DNA of 60,055 nt from Chloroflexota bacterium (GTDB lineage Bacteria > Chloroflexota > Chloroflexia > Chloroflexales > Roseiflexaceae): contig JAGWYG010000012.1 in assembly GCA_018969485.1 (NCBI GenBank), positions 1 through 60,055 on the forward strand, given 5' to 3'. Below, piece by piece: positions 18,228-34,031 of the stretch. A program made the position numbers and the translations under genes. Within the stretch, counting starts at the first letter, position 1, and each line of letters begins with the position of its first letter. The notes under the pieces were generated by a model. The model was not told the DNA's origin. It saw only the letters and a program-made list of their open reading frames with translations, and searched no databases.

Positions 18228-18256
18228 TTGACAAGAGCCGAACCCTCTCGTATTAT
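18228..18256 (+). promoter_or_regulatory. consensus promoter of the arginine operon
   Basis: TTGACA (18228-18233), exactly 17 bases, then TATTAT (18251-18256). The start is expected near 18263, only about four bases before the ATG of the leader peptide at 18267. No ArgR-type palindrome is obvious around it. Confidence 0.88.
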
Positions 18257-18266
18257 ACCCGGCGTT

Positions 18267-18356
18267 ATGCATACGAACAGCGAGCGCTTCGACAATCTGT
18301 ACACGCTGCGGCGTCCCTGCCGTCGTCCGGGCCGTGAGGGCTCGGGGGGCGGCTAG
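18267..18356 (+). CDS. argL: arginine-rich leader peptide of the arg operon
   Basis: A 29-codon ORF too small for ordinary gene calling. It starts about four bases after the predicted transcript start, so it must be translated as a leaderless message. Six of its 29 residues are arginine, five of them within residues 15-23 (RRPCRRPGR). The ORF ends with a G-rich stretch coding for GSGGG and a TAG at 18354. That G-run (GGGGGC at 18345-18350) can pair with GCCCCC at 18412-18417 in the downstream terminator. A ribosome stalled on the arginine codons would leave it free to do so, while a ribosome at the stop would cover it. The name argL is descriptive. Confidence 0.78.
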   Translation: MHTNSERFDNLYTLRRPCRRPGREGSGGG

Positions 18357-18410
18357 CGTGCGTCCAGCCTCAGGCTGCCAGCGCGCCAGCAGTTGCGGTG
18401 ATCGCATCGA

Positions 18411-18450
18411 AGCCCCCGGTCGCACCAGCGGTGCCCGGGGGTCTGTTTTT
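18411..18450 (+). terminator. intrinsic terminator of the arg attenuator
   Basis: The outer stem is CCCCCGG (18413-18419) with CCGGGGG (18435-18441). The inner stem is GCACC-AGC-GGTGC (18422-18434). A T-run follows at 18446-18450. It lies 15 bases before the argC ATG and 55 bases after the leader stop. GCCCCC in its left arm is complementary to GGGGGC at the end of the leader ORF, the expected antiterminator. A small hairpin, AGCCT-C-AGGCT, lies between them at about 18366-18376. Confidence 0.88.
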
Positions 18451-18464
18451 GCAGGAGGGTCGGG

Positions 18465-19478
18465 ATGATCAGGGTCGGAATCTTCGGCGTGAACGGATAT
18501 GCCGGCTACGAATGCCTGCGCTGGCTGCGCCGCCACCGCCAGGCCGAGGTCGTCTTCACCACATCGGAGTCGCAGGCCGGGCGCCAACTCGGCGACATCT
18601 TCGCCGGGCCGCTCGACGCACCACTGATCGCCAGCGACGACGCGCCGCTCGACGCGGTGGATGTCGTCTTCGTGGCGCTGCCGCATGGCGCGGCCGGGCT
18701 GATGGCGCGGCGCGCGCGGGCCGCCGGCGTGCGCGTGATCGACTTCTCCGCTGACCTGCGCCTGACGACGGTCGACGAGTACCGGCGCTGGTATGGTCAC
18801 GAGCATCCCGCCCCGGAGCTCCTGCCGGCGCCGTACGGCATCCCCGAGCTGTGGCGTGCGCAGCTGCGCGACGCGCCGCTGATCGCCAACCCGGGCTGCT
18901 ACCCCACCAGCGTGCTGCTCGGCCTGGCGCCGCTGCTACAACAAGGCCTGCTGGCCCAGCCGACCATCATCATCGACGCCAAGTCGGGCGTATCGGGCGC
19001 CGGGCGCGCGCCCAAGCAGAACACCCACTTCGTCGAGGTCAACGAGAGCCTGGCGCCCTACAATGTCGGGCGGGTGCATCGCCACGTCGGCGAGATGCAG
19101 CAGGAGGCGGCGCGCCTGGCCGGTGGCGCCGTCGCGCCCGAGATCATCTTCTCGCCGCACCTGATGCCGATCTCGCGCGGCATCCTCAGCACGATGTACG
19201 TGGCCATCCCCGGCGAACTGCGCGTCGAGGCGCTCCACGAGCTGTATCACGGGCACTACCGGAACGAGCCATTCATCCGCGTGCTGCCAGTCGGCCAGCT
19301 CGCCACCATCGCCCACACCAGCCACACCAACGACTGCGTCATCTCGGTCGCGCTGGCACGGCCCGGCATGGCGATCATCATCGCCAGCATCGATAACTTG
19401 GTGCGTGGCGCCGCCGGCCAGGCCATCCAGAACATGAACGTGATGTTCGGCATCGACGAGCACGAAGGGCTACGCTGA
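18465..19478 (+). CDS. argC: N-acetyl-gamma-glutamyl-phosphate reductase
   Basis: Third step of arginine synthesis: reduces N-acetylglutamyl phosphate to the semialdehyde with NADPH. The 337 residues include the Rossmann loop GVNGYAGYE, catalytic C145 in NPGCYPT, the KSGVSGAGRAP motif and the SPHLMPISRGIL region. GGAGGG precedes the ATG. It is the first structural gene behind the attenuator, and argB starts at the base after its stop. Confidence 0.97.
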   Translation: MIRVGIFGVNGYAGYECLRWLRRHRQAEVVFTTSESQAGRQLGDIFAGPLDAPLIASDDAPLDAVDVVFVALPHGAAGLMARRARAAGVRVIDFSADLRLTTVDEYRRWYGHEHPAPELLPAPYGIPELWRAQLRDAPLIANPGCYPTSVLLGLAPLLQQGLLAQPTIIIDAKSGVSGAGRAPKQNTHFVEVNESLAPYNVGRVHRHVGEMQQEAARLAGGAVAPEIIFSPHLMPISRGILSTMYVAIPGELRVEALHELYHGHYRNEPFIRVLPVGQLATIAHTSHTNDCVISVALARPGMAIIIASIDNLVRGAAGQAIQNMNVMFGIDEHEGLR

Positions 19479-20237
19479 ATGGGAACCATCGTCGTGAAGA
19501 TCGGCGGCAACGAGCTCGATGATCCGCAGTTCGTCGCCGCGCTGACCGGCAGCATCGCCGGACTGCGCCCGCTGCCGGTGATCGTGCATGGGGGTGGCAA
19601 AGAGATCGGCGTGGTGCAGCAGGCGCTCGGCGGCCAGCCACGCTTCGTCGCCGGCCTGCGCGTCACCGATGAAGCCGCGCTGCGCGCCGCCGAGATGGTG
19701 CTGTGCGGCAGCGTCGCGACGCGCCTCGTCGCCGCGCTCATGCTGGCCGGCGCCGAAGCCCAGGGGCTGTCGGGCGTCGACCGCGGCCTCATCCGGGTGA
19801 CGCGCGTCGCCCACCCCGCCGGTGATCTGGGCCGGGTCGGCCGGCCGGTGGCGATCCGCACCGACATCATCCACCGCCTGCTGCAGGATGGCGTCATCCC
19901 GGTGATCGCGCCGATCTCGCTCGGCGCCGACGGCCCATACAACGTCAACGCCGACGAAGCCGCCGGCGCCATCGCCGCCGCACTCGACGCCGACGAGGTC
20001 GTGTTCGTCACCAACGTGAGCGGCGTGAAGGACGCCACCGGCGCGACCGTGCCGCGGCTGAGCCGTCGCGCCAGCGAGGCGCTGATCGCCGACGGCACGA
20101 TCAGTGGTGGTATGATTCCCAAGGTGCGCGCGGCGCTGAGCGCCCTCGAGGGTGGCGTCGCGACGGTGCGCATCACCACCCTGGAGCAACTGGCACAGCC
20201 GGCGCTGGGCACGCGCATCAGCGAGGCCGACCTGTGA
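19479..20237 (+). CDS. argB: acetylglutamate kinase
   Basis: Phosphorylates N-acetylglutamate with ATP. The 252-residue amino-acid-kinase fold begins IVVKIGGNELDD and has VHGGGKEI (about 35-42), the NADEAAGAIAAALDADEVVFVTN region in two halves, and ISGGMIPKVRAAL near the C-terminus. The length is that of the short ArgB class. The N-terminal helix characteristic of arginine-inhibited hexameric kinases is lacking, so feedback may act elsewhere (inference). Its TGA overlaps the GTG of the next gene. Confidence 0.96.
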   Translation: MGTIVVKIGGNELDDPQFVAALTGSIAGLRPLPVIVHGGGKEIGVVQQALGGQPRFVAGLRVTDEAALRAAEMVLCGSVATRLVAALMLAGAEAQGLSGVDRGLIRVTRVAHPAGDLGRVGRPVAIRTDIIHRLLQDGVIPVIAPISLGADGPYNVNADEAAGAIAAALDADEVVFVTNVSGVKDATGATVPRLSRRASEALIADGTISGGMIPKVRAALSALEGGVATVRITTLEQLAQPALGTRISEADL

Positions 20238-20794
20238 GCACGTCCGTCCCGGCCGCCGATGCGGCGCCGACCCCGCCGCCGGGCGCCATCCAGGTGCGCC
20301 CGGCGCGCGATGACGACATCGCGGCGATCGTGGCGATCGTGGACGAGAATGTCCGGCTGGGGCATCTGCTGCCGCGCAGCGCCGCCGACATCCGCCGCAG
20401 CCTGGCGAGCTGGCTGGTCGCCGACCGTGGCGGCAGCATCGTCGGCATCGGCTCGCTGCTGGTGATGACGCCGGTGCTCGTCGAGGTGCGCTCGCTCGCG
20501 GTGGCCCCCGATGCGGCCGGGCAGGGCGTCGGCGCCGCGCTGGTGCGCGGCCTGATCGCCGAGGCACGGCGGCGCGGCTTTCCGACGATCTTTGCGCTGA
20601 CCCGTGCCGTCGGATTCTTCACCCGGCTCGGGTTCAGCGTCACCGAGCACGAGCGCTTCCCCGAGAAGGTCTGGCGCGATTGTGTGCTCTGCCCCCTGCG
20701 TGAACGCTGCGACGAGACAGCCGTCGTCATGGCTTTGCATGATCAAGCGGGAGATCCGGATGATACAGCGACCACGGGCGACGCTCGCCCTTGA
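20234..20794 (+). CDS. GNAT-type N-acetylglutamate synthase (short ArgA)
   Basis: Makes N-acetylglutamate from glutamate and acetyl-CoA. The 186 residues form a single GNAT domain with the acetyl-CoA loop [14 protein letters not shown] (about 95-108). The C-terminal pattern [18 protein letters not shown], with its conserved cysteines, is the hallmark of the short synthases found in actinobacteria and Chloroflexi. It has no kinase-like regulatory domain, unlike E. coli ArgA. The start is GTG, overlapping argB by four bases. Its last 35 bases overlap carA. With ArgJ in the same operon it would mainly have a priming role. Confidence 0.85.
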
Positions 20795-21899
20795 AGATGG
20801 CACGATCTGGCATGGCACGGCGTTCGGCGCGCGCGGCGAACGCAGCGGCGAGGTGGTGTTCAACACCGCGATGACCGGCTACCAGGAGGTGCTGACCGAT
20901 CCGTCGTACTTCGGCCAGATCGTGGTGATGACGGCGCCGCACATCGGCAACACCGGCATCAACCCCGAGGACGCCGAAAGCCGTGCGCTATGGCTCTCGG
21001 GGTTCGTCGTGCGCGCCGCCAGCCGCCGGGTGAGTAGCTGGCGCGCAACCCGTACGCTCGACGACTATCTCGCCGAGCATGGCGTGGTGGGCATCACCGG
21101 GCTCGACACCCGCGCTCTGGTGCTGCACATCCGCGAAGCCGGCGCACTGCGCGGCGTGATCTCGTCGCACGGCGCCGATGCCGCCACGCTGGTCGCGGCG
21201 GCGCGCGCGGCCCCGTCGATGGAAGGGCTCGATCTGGTGCCGCAGGTCACCTGCGCCGAGCCGTATCACTGGCACGCCGGCGTCGATCCCCAATGGCTCG
21301 TCGAGCCGATCACGGGCCACAGCGACTACCATGTCGTCGCGTACGACTTCGGCATGAAGCACCACATCCTGCGCATGCTCGCCCAGCGTGGCTGCCGGGT
21401 GACCGTTGTGCCGGCCACCACACCCGCCAGCGCGGTGCTGGCGCTCGCACCCGACGGCGTGTTCCTGTCGAATGGCCCGGGCGATCCCGCCACGGTGCGC
21501 TACGGCATCGCCGCCACCCGCGAGCTCATCGGGCGCGTGCCGCTGTTCGGCATCTGCCTCGGCCACCAGATCCTGGGCCTGGCGCTCGGCGCCGGCACCT
21601 ACAAGCTGCGATTTGGCCACCACGGCGGCAATCAGCCGGTGCGTCACTCGACGACCCGGCGCGTCGAAATCTCGAGCCACAATCACGGATTTGCCGTCGA
21701 TGCGACGACCCTGCCCGCCGATGTCGCCGTGAGCCACCTCAACCTGAACGACGCGTGCGTCGAAGGGCTCGATGCGCCCGGGCTGCGCGCCTTCAGCGTG
21801 CAATATCATCCGGAATCGGCGCCGGGCCCCCACGACTCGGGCTATCTGTTCGATCGTTTCATCGCGCTGATGCGGCGCGACGCGCCTGCCGATGCGTGA
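20760..21899 (+). CDS. carA: carbamoyl-phosphate synthase small subunit
   Basis: The glutamine amidotransferase subunit, passing ammonia to CarB. The 379 residues have an N-terminal CPSase small-chain domain ([32 protein letters not shown]). A class I amidotransferase domain follows with nucleophile C266 in FGICLGHQ and partners H350 and E352 in QYHPES. ATG 20760 (GGGAG upstream) gives the family length and overlaps the preceding gene by 35 bases. An in-frame ATG about 20 bases earlier is a less likely alternative. Confidence 0.96.
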
Positions 21900-21935: not shown

Positions 21936-24900
21936 ATGCCAAAACGCAGTGATATCCAGACGATCCTGGTGATCGGCTCCGGGCCGATCGTGATCGGCCA
22001 GGCGTGTGAGTTCGATTACTCCGGGGTGCAGGCCTGCAAGGTGCTGCGCCGCGAGGGCTATCGTGTCGTGCTGGTCAACAGCAATCCGGCGACGATCATG
22101 ACCGATCCGCAGTTCGCAGACGCGACCTATATCGAGCCGCTGACGCCGGAGGTGCTCGAGAAGATCATCGTCATCGAACGCCCCGACGCCGTCCTGCCGA
22201 CGGTCGGCGGCCAGACCGGGCTGAACCTGGCGATGCGGCTGCATCAGCTCGGCATCCTCGCACGCCACGGCGTACAGCTGATCGGCGCGTCCCCCGCGGC
22301 GATCGAGCTCGCCGAGGATCGCCAGCGCTTCAAGGAGGCGATGATCGCCGCCGGCCTGGGCATCCCGCCGGGCGAGACGGTCACCAGCGTGGCCGGAGCG
22401 GTCGATGCCGCCGAACGCATCGGCTATCCGGTGCTGATCCGCCCGTCGTTCACGCTGGGTGGCTCGGGCGGTGGCATCGCCTACGATCAGGCACAGCTGC
22501 GCGAGATCGCCGACCGCGGCCTGCGCGCCTCGCCGGTGACCCAGGTGCTGATCGAACAGTCGGTGCTCGGCTGGAAGGAATACGAGCTCGAGGTGATGCG
22601 CGACTGCGCCGATAACTTCGTGGTGGTCTGCTCGATCGAAAACCTCGACCCGATGGGCGTGCATACCGGCGACTCGATCACCGTCGCGCCGGCGATGACC
22701 CTCACCGACCGCGAACTGCAGCGCCTGCGCGATATCGCCCGCATCGTCATCCGCACCGTCGGCGTCGAGACCGGTGGCTCGAACATCCAGTTCGCCGTCG
22801 ATCCGGCCAATGGCCAGGTGGTGGTGATCGAGATGAACCCCCGCGTCAGCCGCTCGTCGGCGCTGGCGAGCAAGGCGACTGGCTTCCCGATCGCGAAGAT
22901 CGCCGCACTGCTCGCCGTGGGCTATACGCTCGATGAGATCCAGAACGATATCACCCGCGTGACGCCCGCGTCGTTTGAGCCGAGCCTTGATTATGTCGTC
23001 GTGAAAATTCCGCGCTGGGCCTTCGAGAAGTTCCCCGGCGCCGACCCGGTGCTCGGCCCGCAGATGAAGAGCGTCGGCGAGGTGATGGCGATCGGTGCGA
23101 CGTTCACCGAGGCATTCCAGAAGGCGCTGCGCAGCCTGGAGACCGGCGCGCTCGGCTTCGGTATGCGGCGCAACCGGCAGGCGCCGCTCCCCGGCACCGA
23201 CTGGCAGCCGCTGCTGGCGACGCCGACCCCCGAGCGTATCGGGCATGTCGCCGAGGCGCTGCGCGCCGGCTGGAGCATCGAGCAGGTCTGCGCCGCGACG
23301 CGCTACGATCCCTGGTTCGTCGATCAGCTGAGCCAGTTGATCGAACTGGAGGCCGGGCTGGCGCGCACGCCGCTGCACGCGATCACCGCCGAGCTGTGGC
23401 GCGAGGTCAAGGGGCATGGGTTCGGCGACGCCCAGATCGCCGCGATCGTCGCGGCCAGCGAAGCGGATGTTCGCCGACAGCGCATCGCCCACGGCGTCAT
23501 GCCGGTCTACCGGCGCATCGACACCTGCGCCGCCGAGTTCGCCGCCCACACCCCCTACCTGTACAGCAGCTACTCGAGCCACGATGAGGCGGCAGTGACC
23601 GACCGGCCCAAGGTGATGGTGCTCGGCGGTGGCCCCAACCGCATCGGCCAGGGCATCGAATTCGACTACTGCTGTGTGCACGCCTGCATGGCGCTGCGCG
23701 ATCTCGGCTACGAGACGATCATGGTCAACTGCAACCCCGAGACCGTCTCGACCGACTACGACACCTCGGACCGGCTGTACTTCGAGCCACTGACGCTCGA
23801 GGACGTGCTCAACATCTGGGAGCACGAGTCGCGCCATGCGGCGGGCCAGCCGGTGCCGGCGCTGGTGCAGTTCGGTGGCCAGACGCCGCTGAATCTGGCG
23901 CGCGGCCTGGAAGCGGCCGGCGTGCCGATCTGGGGCACCTCGACCGACGCCATCGATCTGGCCGAGGATCGCGGCCGGTTCGGCGCGCTGATGCGGCAGT
24001 TGGACGTCGCCCAGCCCGAGAGCGGCATGGCCGACGATCTCACGACGGCGCGCGCCGTGGCCCAGCGCATCGGCTACCCGGTGCTGGTGCGCCCGAGCTA
24101 TGTGCTCGGCGGGCGGGCGATGGCGATCGCCTATGATGATGCCAGCCTGGCCGAGTACCTGCGCGAAGCCAGCGCGATCAGCGCGGGCCAGCCGGTGCTG
24201 ATCGACCGCTACCTCGAAGACGCCTTCGAGATCGATGTCGACGCCGTCGGCGACGGCGACCAGATCGTCATCGGCGGCATCATGGAGCACATCGAGGAAG
24301 CCGGCGTCCACTCCGGCGATTCGGCGATGGTGATGCCACCCTACAAGGTCAGCGCCTATCATCTCGCGATCATTCGCGACGAGACCGTCCGGATCGGCAA
24401 GGCGCTGCGCGTCCGTGGGCTGATGAACATCCAGTACGCCATCCTCGATGACGAGGTGTACGTGCTCGAGGTCAATCCGCGCTCGTCGCGCACGGTGCCG
24501 TTCGTCGCCAAGGCGACCGGCGTCCCGCTGGCACGCATCGCCGCGCAGGCTGCCGCCGGGCGCACGCTCGCCGAGCTCGGCCTGACGGTCGAGCCGCCGC
24601 TGGACGGTTTCTTCGTGAAGGAGGCGGTGCTGCCCTTCGACAAGTTCCCGGGCGCTGCCGTGCATCTGAGCCCGGAGATGCGCTCGACCGGCGAGGTGAT
24701 GGGGCATGCCGCCAGCTTCGGCCACGCCTTCGCCAAGGCCCAGATGGGTGCCGGGCAGCGCATCCCCACCAGCGGTGGTGTGCTGCTGACGGTGAATGAC
24801 TTCGACAAGGGCGCCATCGTGCGCATCGCCCGCGATCTCGTCAAGCTCGGCTTCACGATCTATGCCACGCATGGCACCACCGGCTGGCTCAACGGCGTCG

Positions 24901-25187
24901 GCATTCCCGCCGAGGCGGTCAACAAAGTCTCGCAGGGCGGCTTCACCACCGTCGACCTGATCGCCCAGGGGCGCGTCGGGCTGGTGGTGAGCACCCCGCT
25001 CGGGCCGCAGGCCTACGCCGACGGTCAGGCCATCCGCTCCGCCGCCATCCGCTACGGCGTGCTGCTCGTGACGACGCTCACCGCCGCCGCGGCGATGGTG
25101 CCGGCGATCCGTGCGCTCCAGCACGCCGACTTGCGCGTTCGTTCGTTGCAGCATCATCACGCGTTGCAGCGCCACCGCGCCGAATGA
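21936..25187 (+). CDS. carB: carbamoyl-phosphate synthase large subunit
   Basis: Makes carbamoyl phosphate from bicarbonate, ammonia and two ATP. The 1083 residues show the two homologous ATP-grasp halves. The first has [26 protein letters not shown] and [20 protein letters not shown]. The second, from about residue 560, has [28 protein letters not shown] and [19 protein letters not shown]-terminal MGS-like allosteric domain (about 940-1083) follows, with [15 protein letters not shown]. The product feeds both ArgF and pyrimidine synthesis, so arginine-controlled attenuation of this operon would also affect pyrimidines. Confidence 0.97.
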
Positions 25188-25227: not shown

Positions 25228-26436
<1,209 letters not shown>

Positions 26437-26463: not shown

Positions 26464-27681
26464 ATGAGCGATGAACTGGCGTCGTTCACGCTGGCGCCGG
26501 GGTTTCATGCCCTGGCGACCGCGTGTGGCCTGAAGAAGAACGGCGCGCTGGATCTGGCGCTGGTGACGAGCGCGACGCCGTGCAGCGCGGCTGGCGTGTT
26601 CACCACCAACCGCGTCAAGGCGGCGCCGGTGCTCTACGACCAGGCGGTGCTCCAGCGCAATTCCGCCGGCATCCGCGCGGTGATCGTGAATGCCGGCAAT
26701 GCGAATGCCTGCACCGGCCCGCGCGGCATGGAGGATTGCCGGGCGACGGCGGCGCTCACCGCCGACCGGCTCGGCTGCGCCACCGATGCGGTGCTGGTGC
26801 TCTCGACGGGGGTGATCGGCCGGCATCTGGACATGGCCCGGCTGAGCGCCGGGGTGGCGGCGCTCACCGCTACCCCGTCGGCGGTGCAGCCGGGCGCTGC
26901 TGCCGCGGCGCGCGCCATCATGACGACCGACACGCGGCCGAAGGTGGCGCATCATCGCTATGCGCTCGCCGGCGGCCAGGTGACGATCGCCGGCATGTGC
27001 AAGGGCGCCGGGATGATCCATCCGGCGATGGCCACGATGCTGGCGATCGTGACGACCGATGCGGTGATCGCGCCGGCGCTGCTCGACCGCGCGCTGCGTC
27101 ATGCTGCCGACCGCAGCTTCAACCGGATCAGCGTCGATGGCGATACCAGCACCAACGACACGCTGCTGCTGCTGGCGTCGGGGAGCTCGGGCGTAGTCAT
27201 CGGCGACGCCGAGCTGGCGGCGTTCAGCGAGGCGCTCGGCGAGACGTGCGCCGCGCTGGCGCGGCAGGTCGCCCGCGATGGCGAGGGCGCGACCCGCCTG
27301 ATCGAGGTGCGCGTCACGGGTGCCGCCGATGACGCCGAGGCGCACCAGGTGGCCAATGCGATCGCCCGGTCGCCGCTGTTCAAGACGGCGGTGCATGGGG
27401 GCGATCCCAACTGGGGGCGCGTGCTGTGCGCCGCCGGCTACAGCGGTGCCGAGATCGACCCCGCGACCCTGGCGCTGTGGTTCGGCGTGGGTGCGCACCA
27501 GATCGCGCTCGTGGCCGGTGGCCTGCCGCTCGCGGCCGATCTGGCGGCGGCGTCGCGGCTGCTGCGCCAGGATCCGGTGATCATCACGCTGGATCTCGGT
27601 CGTGGCACCGCCGCGACGACGGTCTGGACGTGCGACTTCTCGAAGGAATATGTCGAGATCAACGCCCACTACACCACGTGA
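26464..27681 (+). CDS. argJ: bifunctional glutamate N-acetyltransferase / amino-acid acetyltransferase
   Basis: Transfers acetyl from N-acetylornithine back to glutamate, closing the acetyl cycle. The 405-residue precursor is expected to self-cleave before nucleophile T191 in GMIHPAMATML, giving alpha and beta chains. STGVIGRHL, NRISVDGDTSTNDT and HGGDPNWGRVL are family marks. ATG 26464 has GGGGAGG upstream; a GTG three codons earlier is possible. Whether it can also use acetyl-CoA is not visible in the sequence. A separate synthase gene in this operon suggests the monofunctional mode. Confidence 0.96.
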   Translation: MSDELASFTLAPGFHALATACGLKKNGALDLALVTSATPCSAAGVFTTNRVKAAPVLYDQAVLQRNSAGIRAVIVNAGNANACTGPRGMEDCRATAALTADRLGCATDAVLVLSTGVIGRHLDMARLSAGVAALTATPSAVQPGAAAAARAIMTTDTRPKVAHHRYALAGGQVTIAGMCKGAGMIHPAMATMLAIVTTDAVIAPALLDRALRHAADRSFNRISVDGDTSTNDTLLLLASGSSGVVIGDAELAAFSEALGETCAALARQVARDGEGATRLIEVRVTGAADDAEAHQVANAIARSPLFKTAVHGGDPNWGRVLCAAGYSGAEIDPATLALWFGVGAHQIALVAGGLPLAADLAAASRLLRQDPVIITLDLGRGTAATTVWTCDFSKEYVEINAHYTT

Positions 27682-27717: not shown

Positions 27718-29085
27718 ATGTGGGGTGGGCGCTTCACCGGTGGCATCGATGCGCAGATGGCGCGCTTCAATGACTCGTTTCCCTTCGATCGGCGCATGTG
27801 GGCCGAGGACATCCGCGGCAGCCGTGCCTGGGCGCGACAACTGGCGGCCGTCGGCGTGATCAGCGCCGACGAGGCCGACGCCCTCGATCGCGGGCTGCAG
27901 GCCGTCCACGCCGAATTCGCCGCCGGCGCGTTCGTCGCGCAGCCCGGCGACGAGGACATCCACACCGCCGTCGAGCGCCGGCTGGGCGAACTGGCCGGGC
28001 CGGTCGCCGGCAAGCTCCACACGGGCCGCAGTCGGAACGACCAGGTCGCCACCGATCTGCGGCTGTGGACGCTCGGCGCGATCGGGCGCATCGATGCCGG
28101 GTTGCGTGGGCTGCAGCAGGCGCTGCTGGCGCAGGCCGACGCCGCCGGCGCGGCGCTGATGCCCGGCTATACCCACCTGCAGCGGGCGCAGCCCGTCTTG
28201 CTGGCACACTGGCTGCTGTCGCACTTCTGGCCGCTGCAGCGCGATCGCGAGCGGCTCGCCGACGCCGCCCGGCGCGCCGCCACGCTGCCGCTCGGGGCGG
28301 GCGCCATCGCCGGCACGCCGCTGCGCGTCGATCGCATGGCGCTCGCCGCCGAGCTCGGCATGCACGCCGTGACCCCCAACAGCATCGATGCGGTCAGCGA
28401 TCGCGACTTCGCCGTCGAGGTTCTCGCCGCCGCCGCGCTGGTCGGCGTCCACCTCAGCCGCCTCGCCGAGGACATCGTGCTCTACAGCACCAGCGAGTTC
28501 GGCTTCGTGCGCCTGGCCGATGCCTACTCGACCGGCTCGAGCCTGATGCCGCAGAAGAAGAACCCGGACTCGTTCGAGCTGCTGCGCGGCAAGTCGGGCC
28601 GCCTGGTCGGCGGCCTGGTGACGCTGCTCACGGTGCTGAAGGGATTGCCCTCGGCCTACGACAAGGATCTGCAGGAAGACAAGGAGCCGCTGTTCGATGC
28701 CAGTGACACGCTGGAGCTGTCGCTGGTCGTCGCCGCCGGCGCGATCGCGACGGCGACGTTCGATCACCGACGGATGCGGGCGGCGCTGGACGACGCGATG
28801 CTGGCGACCGACGTCGCCGATATGCTGGTCGAGCGTGGCATGCCATTTCGCGAGGCGCATCGCGCCGTCGGCGCCCTGGTGCGGGCTGCCGAGACGCACG
28901 GCGTGCCGCTGTCGCAGGTGCCCGCGGCGGTCGCCGGCGCGATTGATGTGCGCCTCGATGACCAGTTGTCGGCGGTGTTCCAGCTCGAACGCTCGGTCGC
29001 GGCACGCCGCGTGATCGGGGCGACGGCGCCCGAGGCGGTGCAGCAGCAGCTCGCCGCGGCCCGCGCCGCCCTGGCGCTGCCCTGA
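27718..29085 (+). CDS. argH: argininosuccinate lyase
   Basis: Last step of the pathway: splits argininosuccinate to arginine and fumarate. A 455-residue fumarase/aspartase-superfamily protein with the family opening MWGGRFTGG, LHTGRSRNDQVATD, the histidine region MPGYTHLQRAQPV, and the signature GSSLMPQKKNPD (serine loop at about 273-284). AAAGGA precedes the ATG. A small ORF with a strong ribosome site follows 58 bases later. Confidence 0.97.
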   Translation: MWGGRFTGGIDAQMARFNDSFPFDRRMWAEDIRGSRAWARQLAAVGVISADEADALDRGLQAVHAEFAAGAFVAQPGDEDIHTAVERRLGELAGPVAGKLHTGRSRNDQVATDLRLWTLGAIGRIDAGLRGLQQALLAQADAAGAALMPGYTHLQRAQPVLLAHWLLSHFWPLQRDRERLADAARRAATLPLGAGAIAGTPLRVDRMALAAELGMHAVTPNSIDAVSDRDFAVEVLAAAALVGVHLSRLAEDIVLYSTSEFGFVRLADAYSTGSSLMPQKKNPDSFELLRGKSGRLVGGLVTLLTVLKGLPSAYDKDLQEDKEPLFDASDTLELSLVVAAGAIATATFDHRRMRAALDDAMLATDVADMLVERGMPFREAHRAVGALVRAAETHGVPLSQVPAAVAGAIDVRLDDQLSAVFQLERSVAARRVIGATAPEAVQQQLAAARAALALP

Positions 29086-29355: not shown

Positions 29356-29577
29356 TGCCTCGCACAGCTCGCCGGGCCTGGCTGGCACGGCCAAGCGCAC
29401 GATGGATGGTGCGCGTACCGCGGCATGCCGCACATGCCTGAATGTGCGCGCTGCGGCAGCGCCGCCGCCGCCGTCGAACCGCCGGGCGGAACCGGTATGC
29501 GATCAGCGTCACGACGCCGCAGCGCATGCCGCGCGCCCTGTCGCGCCGCAGCCCCGCAGCCCCGCAGCCCCGCTCAG

Positions 29578-29606
29578 TTGCGCGCGCGGCGCGATGCTGG
29601 TATGCT
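29578..29606 (+). promoter_or_regulatory. promoter of the Crp/Fnr-type regulator
   Basis: TTGCGC (29578-29583), a 17 bp spacer and TATGCT (29601-29606). The start lies near 29613, which rules out the in-frame ATG at 29602 as start codon. Confidence 0.6.
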
Positions 29607-29640
29607 CAGGGCAGACACCGCCATCGACCCCGAGGTGCCT

Positions 29641-30345
29641 GTGGACCCCACCAAGCGGCGCATTACCACGCTGCCGGTCTATACCGTCGCCGACGGCGAT
29701 GTGTTCGCGATGCTCCCCGAGGCCGAGCGCACCTGGCTCGAACGCCAGACGGTCTCGGCGGACTATCCGGCCGAGCATCCGTTCTACTCGCCCGATGATG
29801 CCGGCGATCGCATCTTCATCCTGCGCCGCGGGCGCGTGCGTCTCTACAAGCTCTCGCCCGAAGGGCGCGCGCTGACGCTGCTGGTCCTCGAGCCGCTGGC
29901 GGTGTTCGGCGAGATGGCACTGTGGGAGCATTGGCGGCACGACAGCTTCGCGGAATCGATGACCGAATGCGTCATCGACAGCATCCGCCGCGAGCGGGTG
30001 CGAACGATTCTCGATCGTCATCCGCTCGTGGCGATGCGGCTGATGGAGGTGATGAGCAGCCGGATGCACGCGATGGAGCGCAAGTTGGCCGACATCACCT
30101 TCAAGAGCGTGCCACAGCGCATCGCCACCGTGCTGCTCAGCCTGGCCGGCGATGATGTCGCGCCCAGTGCGCCGCCGTCGGTCACGCGCTACACCCATCA
30201 GCATCTCGCCGAGATGATCGGCTCGTATCGTGAGACGGTCACCAAGGTGATCGGCGAGCTGCGCGAGACCGGCCTGATCCGCATCGAGAATGACACGATC
30301 TTCCTGACGAACGTGGCGCGCCTGCAGCAGCTCGCCGGCCGCTGA
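29641..30345 (+). CDS. Crp/Fnr-family transcriptional regulator
   Basis: A 234-residue regulator with an N-terminal cyclic-nucleotide-binding-type barrel and a C-terminal winged helix. The barrel runs from about 25 to 140, with DDAGDRIFILRRGRVRLYK and FGEMALWEH. The winged-helix recognition segment is THQHLAEMIGSYRETVTKVIGEL. No Fnr-type N-terminal cysteines are present. The barrel lacks a clear cAMP-contacting RxS pair, so the effector is unknown. I use GTG 29641, with a GAGG-like site upstream; GTG 29635 is possible. It is probably monocistronic and converges on tlpA across a repeat. Confidence 0.85.
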   Translation: MDPTKRRITTLPVYTVADGDVFAMLPEAERTWLERQTVSADYPAEHPFYSPDDAGDRIFILRRGRVRLYKLSPEGRALTLLVLEPLAVFGEMALWEHWRHDSFAESMTECVIDSIRRERVRTILDRHPLVAMRLMEVMSSRMHAMERKLADITFKSVPQRIATVLLSLAGDDVAPSAPPSVTRYTHQHLAEMIGSYRETVTKVIGELRETGLIRIENDTIFLTNVARLQQLAGR

Positions 30346-32900: not shown

Positions 32901-34031
32901 ATGACGCATTCCGTGATCCGCGCGGGCCTGGTAGGATGTGGCTCGCTGGCGCAGCGCGGCGTCCTGCCACACCTCGCGCAACCCGACGCCCGCGAGCGAC
33001 TGATCCTCGCGGCGGTCGTCGACGCCGACGGCGAGCGCGCGCGGCGCACCGCCGAGGCCTACGAGGTACCCAACTGGTTCACCAGCGTCGAGGCGATGCT
33101 CGCCGGCTGCGACGTCGACGTCGTCCTGGTGCTCACGCCCATCCCGCTGCATTACGCCCACGCTGCGGCGGCGATCGCCGCCGGCAAGCACGTCTACGTC
33201 CAGAAGGCGATGACCGCCAGCCTGGCCGACGCCGACGCATTGCTCGCCGCACGGGATCGCGCCGGGGTCCGGCTGGCAGCCGCCCCGGGCTACGAACTGT
33301 TCCCCGCCACCGCCGCCATCCGCGCCGAGATCGCCGCCGGCGCGATCGGCCAGGTCGCGGTGAGCTACACCTACACCATGGGGTTCGGCCACGAGCACGA
33401 GGGCATCCGCCAGGGCGAGGGCGCGCTGCAGGCGATCGACCCTAGCTGGTACTATCGGCGGGGCGCCGGCCCGCTGCCCGACGTGACGGTCTATGCGCTC
33501 CAGTTGGTGACGAGCGTGCTGGGGCCGGTGCGCCGCGTGACGGCGCTGGCCAACCAGTTGATGCCGCTGCGGCGCTGGCGCGACCGCGAGATCGCCATCG
33601 AAGTCGCCGACAACCAGGTCGTGCTGCTCGAGCACCACAGCGGCGCGCTGAGCGTGGCAGTCGGCTCGGACTGCCGTGGGGCGCCGGGGGTGCCGTGGGG
33701 GGCGGCCACCTTCTTCGGCACCCACGGCTGTCTCGACATCGTCGATGTCGATGGCGCCAGCGGCTACCCGACGCGCTACCGCGTGGCGGGGCGCGAGGTG
33801 GCGTTCGGGCTGGATGCCCAGCCGTACCTGCGCGGCGCGCACCTGACGCTCGAGGAGCCGCATGTCTATGCCGACATCATGGAACTGGTCGATGCGATCG
33901 GGCAGCAGCGCGCGCCGCGCGCCAGCGGCGAACACGCACGGCATGTGGTCGAGCTGATCGCCGCCGCACACCGCGCCGCCGACACTGGCGCGGCACAGGT
34001 GCTCACCACCACATTCGAGGCGGGCAGTTGA
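32901..34031 (+). CDS. Gfo/Idh/MocA-family oxidoreductase
   Basis: An NAD(P)-dependent sugar or cyclitol oxidoreductase of 376 residues. The N-terminal Rossmann fold opens with RAGLVGCGSLAQRGVLPHL. VLVLTPIPLHYAHAAAAI and the catalytic-lysine motif KHVYVQKAMT (EKP-type, here QKA) follow. The C-terminal GFO_IDH_MocA domain starts around APGYELFPA. In typical members the dipeptide before the lysine position is EK-P; QKA is a mild departure. The substrate is unknown. It stands alone and converges on a lipoprotein gene. Confidence 0.88.
   Translation: MTHSVIRAGLVGCGSLAQRGVLPHLAQPDARERLILAAVVDADGERARRTAEAYEVPNWFTSVEAMLAGCDVDVVLVLTPIPLHYAHAAAAIAAGKHVYVQKAMTASLADADALLAARDRAGVRLAAAPGYELFPATAAIRAEIAAGAIGQVAVSYTYTMGFGHEHEGIRQGEGALQAIDPSWYYRRGAGPLPDVTVYALQLVTSVLGPVRRVTALANQLMPLRRWRDREIAIEVADNQVVLLEHHSGALSVAVGSDCRGAPGVPWGAATFFGTHGCLDIVDVDGASGYPTRYRVAGREVAFGLDAQPYLRGAHLTLEEPHVYADIMELVDAIGQQRAPRASGEHARHVVELIAAAHRAADTGAAQVLTTTFEAGS

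Follow-up and report, generated by a model that had tools for sequence, protein, structure and literature searches.

Ribosome-mediated attenuation is a known class of mechanism, exemplified by the trp, his, leu and ilv attenuators of the E. coli type. The arginine attenuator peptide of fungi (CPA1/arg-2), encoded by an upstream ORF that controls carbamoyl-phosphate synthase for arginine, acts in eukaryotes by nascent-peptide arrest at high arginine, and its mechanism is unrelated to that of the Chloroflexales leader considered here. In bacteria, consecutive Arg codons in orf34, the upstream ORF of Salmonella speF, sense arginine, and ribosome stalling there alters mRNA folding; however, the target is a polyamine gene instead of an arg operon, and control runs via Rho and RNase G instead of an intrinsic terminator (PMC6386406). 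The Arg codons of the Staphylococcus aureus rbfL leader peptide sense arginine shortage, but under shortage rbfL represses translation of a biofilm regulator, without a terminator switch (PMC13009471). The 5' end of the Sinorhizobium meliloti trpL transcript coincides with the ATG of the attenuator leader peptide (PMC7298713). Ribosome-mediated attenuators were predicted in Actinobacteria, and the passages of that survey that were consulted list no Arg attenuator (PMC1262725). Naville and Gautheret (2010) mention neither the Chloroflexi nor arginine.

The window, 60,055 nucleotides of a Chloroflexota genome whose family is labelled f1, contains eight arg/car genes on one strand, with argC the first and neighbours overlapping or no more than about 40 nt apart (Table 1). 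A gene for a Crp/FNR-type regulator (29566–30345) follows argH on the same strand. We conclude, with a probability of about 0.88, that transcription of the argCBA(GNAT)-carAB-argGJH operon is attenuated by ribosomes in the classical trp/his manner, in specific response to arginine. Like the trp, his, leu and ilv attenuators, the arg attenuator has a leader ORF with codons for the end product ahead of the cognate biosynthetic operon, mutually exclusive 3:4 and 2:3 pairings, with a candidate 1:2 pairing alongside 3:4, and a terminator with a U-tract before the first structural gene. Unlike them, it would sense arginine, belongs to a Chloroflexales host, and has a leader that begins about 3 nt (0 nt in g9) after the putative transcription start, without a Shine-Dalgarno sequence. 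In the latter respect it resembles the leaderless S. meliloti trpL, where the transcript begins at the ATG, while here such a start is predicted; trpL differs in sensing tryptophan, in its alphaproteobacterial host, and in sequence and structure (PMC7298713).

Table 1. Features of the arg/car locus and of the related lysine leader. Coordinates are those of the window unless a contig is given.
Feature	Coordinates	Strand	Basis and remarks
Promoter -35, TTGACA	18228–18233	+	sequence scan; TTGACA kept in 31/31 homologous loci
Promoter -10, TATTAT	18251–18256	+	17-nt spacer from -35; exact spacer in 31/31 loci
Predicted 3-nt 5' UTR (GTT)	18264–18266	+	putative start 18264, 8th base after -10
Leader ORF, 29 codons, MHTNSERFDNLYTLRRPCRRPGREGSGGG and stop	18267–18356	+	conserved core LRR..RRPxR
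Sensor Arg codons 15, 16, 19, 20, 23 (CGG CGT .. CGT CGT .. CGT)	18309–18335	+	sequence
Outer part of 1:2	18307–18362	+	Arg codons 18307–18314 with conserved post-stop GCGTGCG 18356–18362; RNAalifold consensus
Putative protector hairpin 1:2, inner	18326–18346	+	TCCGGGCC 18326–18333 with GGCTCGGG 18339–18346; would mask segment 2
Segment 2, antiterminator 5' strand, at the leader ORF end	18340–18349	+	comparison
Segment 3	18412–18421	+	common to antiterminator (2:3) and terminator left arm (3:4); covaries with both partners
Intrinsic terminator	18412–18450	+	hairpin 18412–18442, T-rich tail 18444–18450; folding and comparison
Shine-Dalgarno AGGAGG of argC	18453–18458	+	sequence
argC	18465–19478	+	TIGR01850
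argB	19479–20237	+	TIGR00761
GNAT N-acetyltransferase, argA-like	20234–20794	+	PF00583; best NCBIfam matches below cut-offs
carA, carbamoyl-phosphate synthase small subunit	20760–21899	+	PF00988/PF00117
carB, carbamoyl-phosphate synthase large subunit	21936–25187	+	PF02786 and others
argG	25228–26436	+	PF00764/PF20979
argJ	26467–27681	+	PF01960
argH	27718–29085	+	PF00206/PF14698
Lys-codon leader, source genome	G000:C216:6061–6158	minus	L234, L251; same chassis and terminator before aminoadipate lysine genes

The promoter is nearly perfect for the sigma-70 type, matching 11 of 12 consensus bases, and was the only one found by a search that yields 0.2 in shuffled sequences. The leader ATG lies 10 nt downstream of the -10 hexamer. 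In the 31 homologous loci of families f1 and f3 the hexamer has the form TAnnnT and the distance to the ATG is 7–10 nt (7 nt in all g9 loci, 9 nt in one locus, and 10 nt otherwise). In 17 of 18 distinct sequences position 8 after the -10 box is a purine, and in as many position 7 is a pyrimidine, giving a conserved YR start candidate. Our best estimate for the transcription start is position 18264. If the eighth base is taken as +1, the 5' UTR is 3 nt long in most members, and in g9, where this base is the A of the ATG, its length is zero. The preliminary description had the leader starting leaderless; a near-leaderless start is indeed kept throughout two families and by the majority of a third, while f2 lacks it, its ATG sitting further from the -10 box. 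The Arg leader of genome G067 is not leaderless either.

The leader ORF is short and rich in codons for the end product, as expected for an attenuator: Arg occupies positions 7, 15, 16, 19, 20 and 23. The start, the stop and the core are conserved across the 31 loci, and the length varies between 24 and 35 codons, with the Arg core present in each. Alignment gaps within the ORF are of 3 and 9 nt, while those after the stop codon are not multiples of three, which fits the expectation for a translated ORF. The signal might be the general state of translation or something other than arginine, e.g. proline or slow decoding of CGU and CGA. This is suggested by a conserved proline, which in many leaders follows RR (RRP), and by the rarity of the sensor codons in the operon genes: CGT and CGA account for 43% and 29% of the Arg codons in the leaders and for 9% and 2% in the operon genes, where CGC makes up 67%. 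However, the leaders are strongly enriched in Arg (20% of their codons vs 7% in the operon genes), and the choice of codons shifts from CGT to CGA in g9, while Arg itself is retained. Moreover, related leaders ahead of lysine genes, described below, carry Lys codons. Hence we regard a signal other than arginine as unlikely.

The terminator lies between the leader ORF and the first structural gene, the place it has in attenuators. Its hairpin (-27.9 kcal/mol, z = -3.2) is followed by CTGTTTTT; 22 nt separate the hairpin end from argC, and 14 nt the end of the T run. It was located by folding; a simple terminator pattern scan overlooked it owing to an internal loop in the stem. The antiterminator 2:3 competes with this terminator, and covariation supports it. 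The helix statistics come from a hand-registered alignment of fifteen representatives at approximately the genus level, with g5, whose helix uses another register, excluded from the counts. The antiterminator is paired in 84.7% of cells, a part of which stems from setting the register by eye so that segment 2 pairs with segment 3, and six of its ten pairs have changes on both sides. For the terminator 3:4 these values are 93.3% and eight of ten. None of 500 shuffles reached the observed pairing or covariation score of 2:3, and the same holds for 3:4; shifting the register along the alignment abolishes pairing and covariation of both helices. Since registration by eye inflates the fraction of paired cells, a register-free test is important. 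The duplex energies of segments 2 and 3 from the same leader sum to -284 kcal/mol, compared to -237 (s.d. 10) for permuted partners, and none of 20,000 permutations was as low; with eleven less related representatives, 7 of 20,000 were. In f2 and f4 the preference for the own partner is modest (479 of 20,000). The preliminary description paired GGGGGC (18345–18350) with GCCCCC (18412–18417). These are complementary, but the register kept in relatives is slightly different, 18340–18349 with 18412–18421.

The putative protector hairpin 1:2, in which segment 2 pairs with the last Arg codons, is present in the RNAalifold consensus and is paired in 88.8% of cells in ten family members, in which its covariation is no higher than in shuffles. 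An additional small hairpin (18390–18410 and homologues; A3 columns 133–146) just 5' of the terminator shows compensatory changes on both sides in RNAalifold.

A different role for the ORF would be to encode a small functional protein or to block Rho by its translation, the hairpin then being an ordinary terminator or one controlled riboswitch-like or by an ArgR-like protein. Leaderless small proteins exist, and the Arg-containing upstream ORF of Salmonella speF works via Rho and mRNA stability (PMC6386406). However, conservation of the peptide is confined to the Arg core and does not extend to its termini or length, and the covariation of segment 2 with the terminator arm is not explained by a protein product. 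Rfam covariance models at the gathering score matched only a tRNA in the window, so we rejected a riboswitch. Regulation by ArgR/AhrC was rejected as well: the ArgR C-terminal domain (PF02863) was found in none of 82 genomes of the order, whereas the same search was positive in 8 of 14 control genomes. A small protein, Rho blocking or a protein-controlled terminator is thus very unlikely.

Orthologous loci across the order were retrieved with ArgC. The full layout, that is, the promoter, the ORF with the Arg core and the terminator before argC, was observed in all 31 loci from two families (the 23 f1 loci whose upstream sequence was available, and 8 f3 loci adjoining argC), with ArgC identity down to 55%. 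In f4 and G067, argG is upstream of argJ, argH, the GNAT gene and argC, and the Arg leader precedes argG, with a promoter, a terminator and complementary segments. In f2 the Arg leader precedes argG in 15 of 20 sampled genomes. Five f2 genomes (L196, L201, L203, L212, L213) have no Arg leader before argG; the stretch upstream contains tRNA genes. In g12 the leader precedes a histidine-phosphatase-like gene of the kind that comes after argG in f4. In operons with argG as the first gene the leader is found before argG, so it tracks the head of the operon, not argC. A supposed absence of the element from f2 and f4 was accordingly rejected once the region upstream of argG, not argC, was examined.

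Models R1 and R2 yielded no convincing match outside the order; weak R1 matches in G418, G411, G046, G041, G045, G056 and G075 looked chance-like when read individually. In L292, from a distant Chloroflexota genome (G256:C97, reverse strand, match 33542–33654), a similar pair of hairpins comes after a Pro-rich short ORF (MPMRLPSPPEPEKPDRRSG and stop) and before a metallophosphatase-like ORF, without a clear U-tract. In G031–G034, G036–G038, G042 and G059–G063 identity to ArgG of the window is only about 31% even for the best argG match, which suggests that argG was replaced there by another type of argininosuccinate synthase.

A chance combination of promoter, ORF and hairpin without function, conceivable since GC-rich DNA folds readily and the z-score of the full leader is only -1.8, is refuted by the comparative data: the arrangement recurs in all 31 loci with an unchanging promoter spacing, its helices covary and it sits at the head of the operon.

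The preliminary description had proposed the promoter, the 29-codon Arg-rich ORF and the terminator before argC; these are confirmed, and their recurrence in all 31 loci together with the covariation places them beyond chance. Its attenuator interpretation is supported by the conserved layout and by the covarying 2:3 and 3:4 helices. The comparison it called for, in related Chloroflexia, revealed both a conserved Arg-rich upstream ORF and compensatory changes in the two stems; the contrary outcome that could be checked in silico, lack of conservation of the ORF and terminator in relatives, did not occur. It lacked the putative protector 1:2, the placement at argG across the order, the missing ArgR and the lysine twin.

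Sequence comparison establishes the promoter, the leader ORF, the terminator, the covarying antiterminator and the location at the operon head; we infer the transcription start, the translation of the leader, the stalling and the response to arginine. The attenuator would work as follows. Transcription would begin about 3 nt upstream of the leader AUG, with ribosomes loading by leaderless or near-leaderless initiation. When charged Arg-tRNA is present, the ribosome would reach the UAG and either mask segment 2 or wedge itself between segments 2 and 3; segment 3 would then pair with segment 4 and transcription would terminate ahead of argC. Under a shortage of Arg-tRNA the ribosome would stall at Arg codons 15–20, open the protector hairpin 1:2 and free segment 2, which would pair with the emerging segment 3; no terminator would form and the operon would be transcribed. 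In modelled nascent RNA that stops short of the right terminator arm, 2:3 forms with a mean probability of 0.28 in the absence of a ribosome and of 0.70–0.79 if a ribosome occupies the first Arg codons; the value of zero with a ribosome at the stop arises by construction, because segment 2 is hidden. In g9 and f3 the stop codon is several codons past segment 2, so a terminating ribosome would separate segment 2 from segment 3, not cover segment 2. This presumed position between the two segments is the weakest geometric point of the attenuator model.

Model R2, built from Arg leaders only, also matches a second place in eleven genomes, and the matches examined precede genes of the aminoadipate pathway. 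The proteins encoded downstream match the homoaconitase family (TIGR01343) and homocitrate synthase (TIGR02146), with scores below the full-length cut-offs because the query sequences are partial. The leaders contain Lys codons: MHSLFVKQVKQSKKPDSWSG (G008), MQITDAIIAKQQKRAKKPDNVSG (G022), MRNIHASTKQSKRAKKPAARSG (G038) and, in the source genome itself, MNTLVVKQDKRSATPDAPSG (G000:C216), each ending with a stop. The Lys-codon leaders with the same chassis and terminator are, besides L234 and L251 of the source genome, L233, L236, L243, L244, L248–L250, L252, L253, L256 and L257. The Lys leaders and the Arg leaders of f4 and f2 have in common the CCGG..GTCTGGTTAG....GCTTG frame and the CCAGAC terminator element. 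As an Arg-only model finds Lys leaders of the same architecture, the two attenuators seem to be one chassis with exchanged sensor codons. It is somewhat more probable than not that they are paralogues derived from one ancestral RNA, mirroring the enzymes ArgB/LysZ and ArgC/LysY, which are paralogous too. For the shared frame, common descent with exchange of sensor codons is the simplest reading, though the leaders may instead have converged on one RNA solution.

In the literature on arginine, lysine and leaderless attenuation and in attenuation surveys, covered incompletely, we found no arginine-biosynthesis leader-peptide attenuator in the Chloroflexota, nor any account there of a near-leaderless arg start or of an aminoadipate Lys leader. 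The class of mechanism is known; what sets the locus apart, with priority not established, is its arginine specificity in the Chloroflexota, a near-leaderless start that is conserved, and its Lys twin.

Through this attenuator, the synthesis of arginine and carbamoyl-phosphate could be regulated in a lineage in which ArgR is not detected, and arginine would join the amino acids sensed by classical attenuation. The locus also provides a conserved near-leaderless leader gene whose function would depend on ribosomes loading at a bare 5' end. If the kinship of the Arg and Lys leaders is true, the Chloroflexales regulate the two pathways with recoded versions of a single attenuator, without ArgR. 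The Lys twin opens the evolution of attenuator specificity by exchange of sensor codons to direct test.
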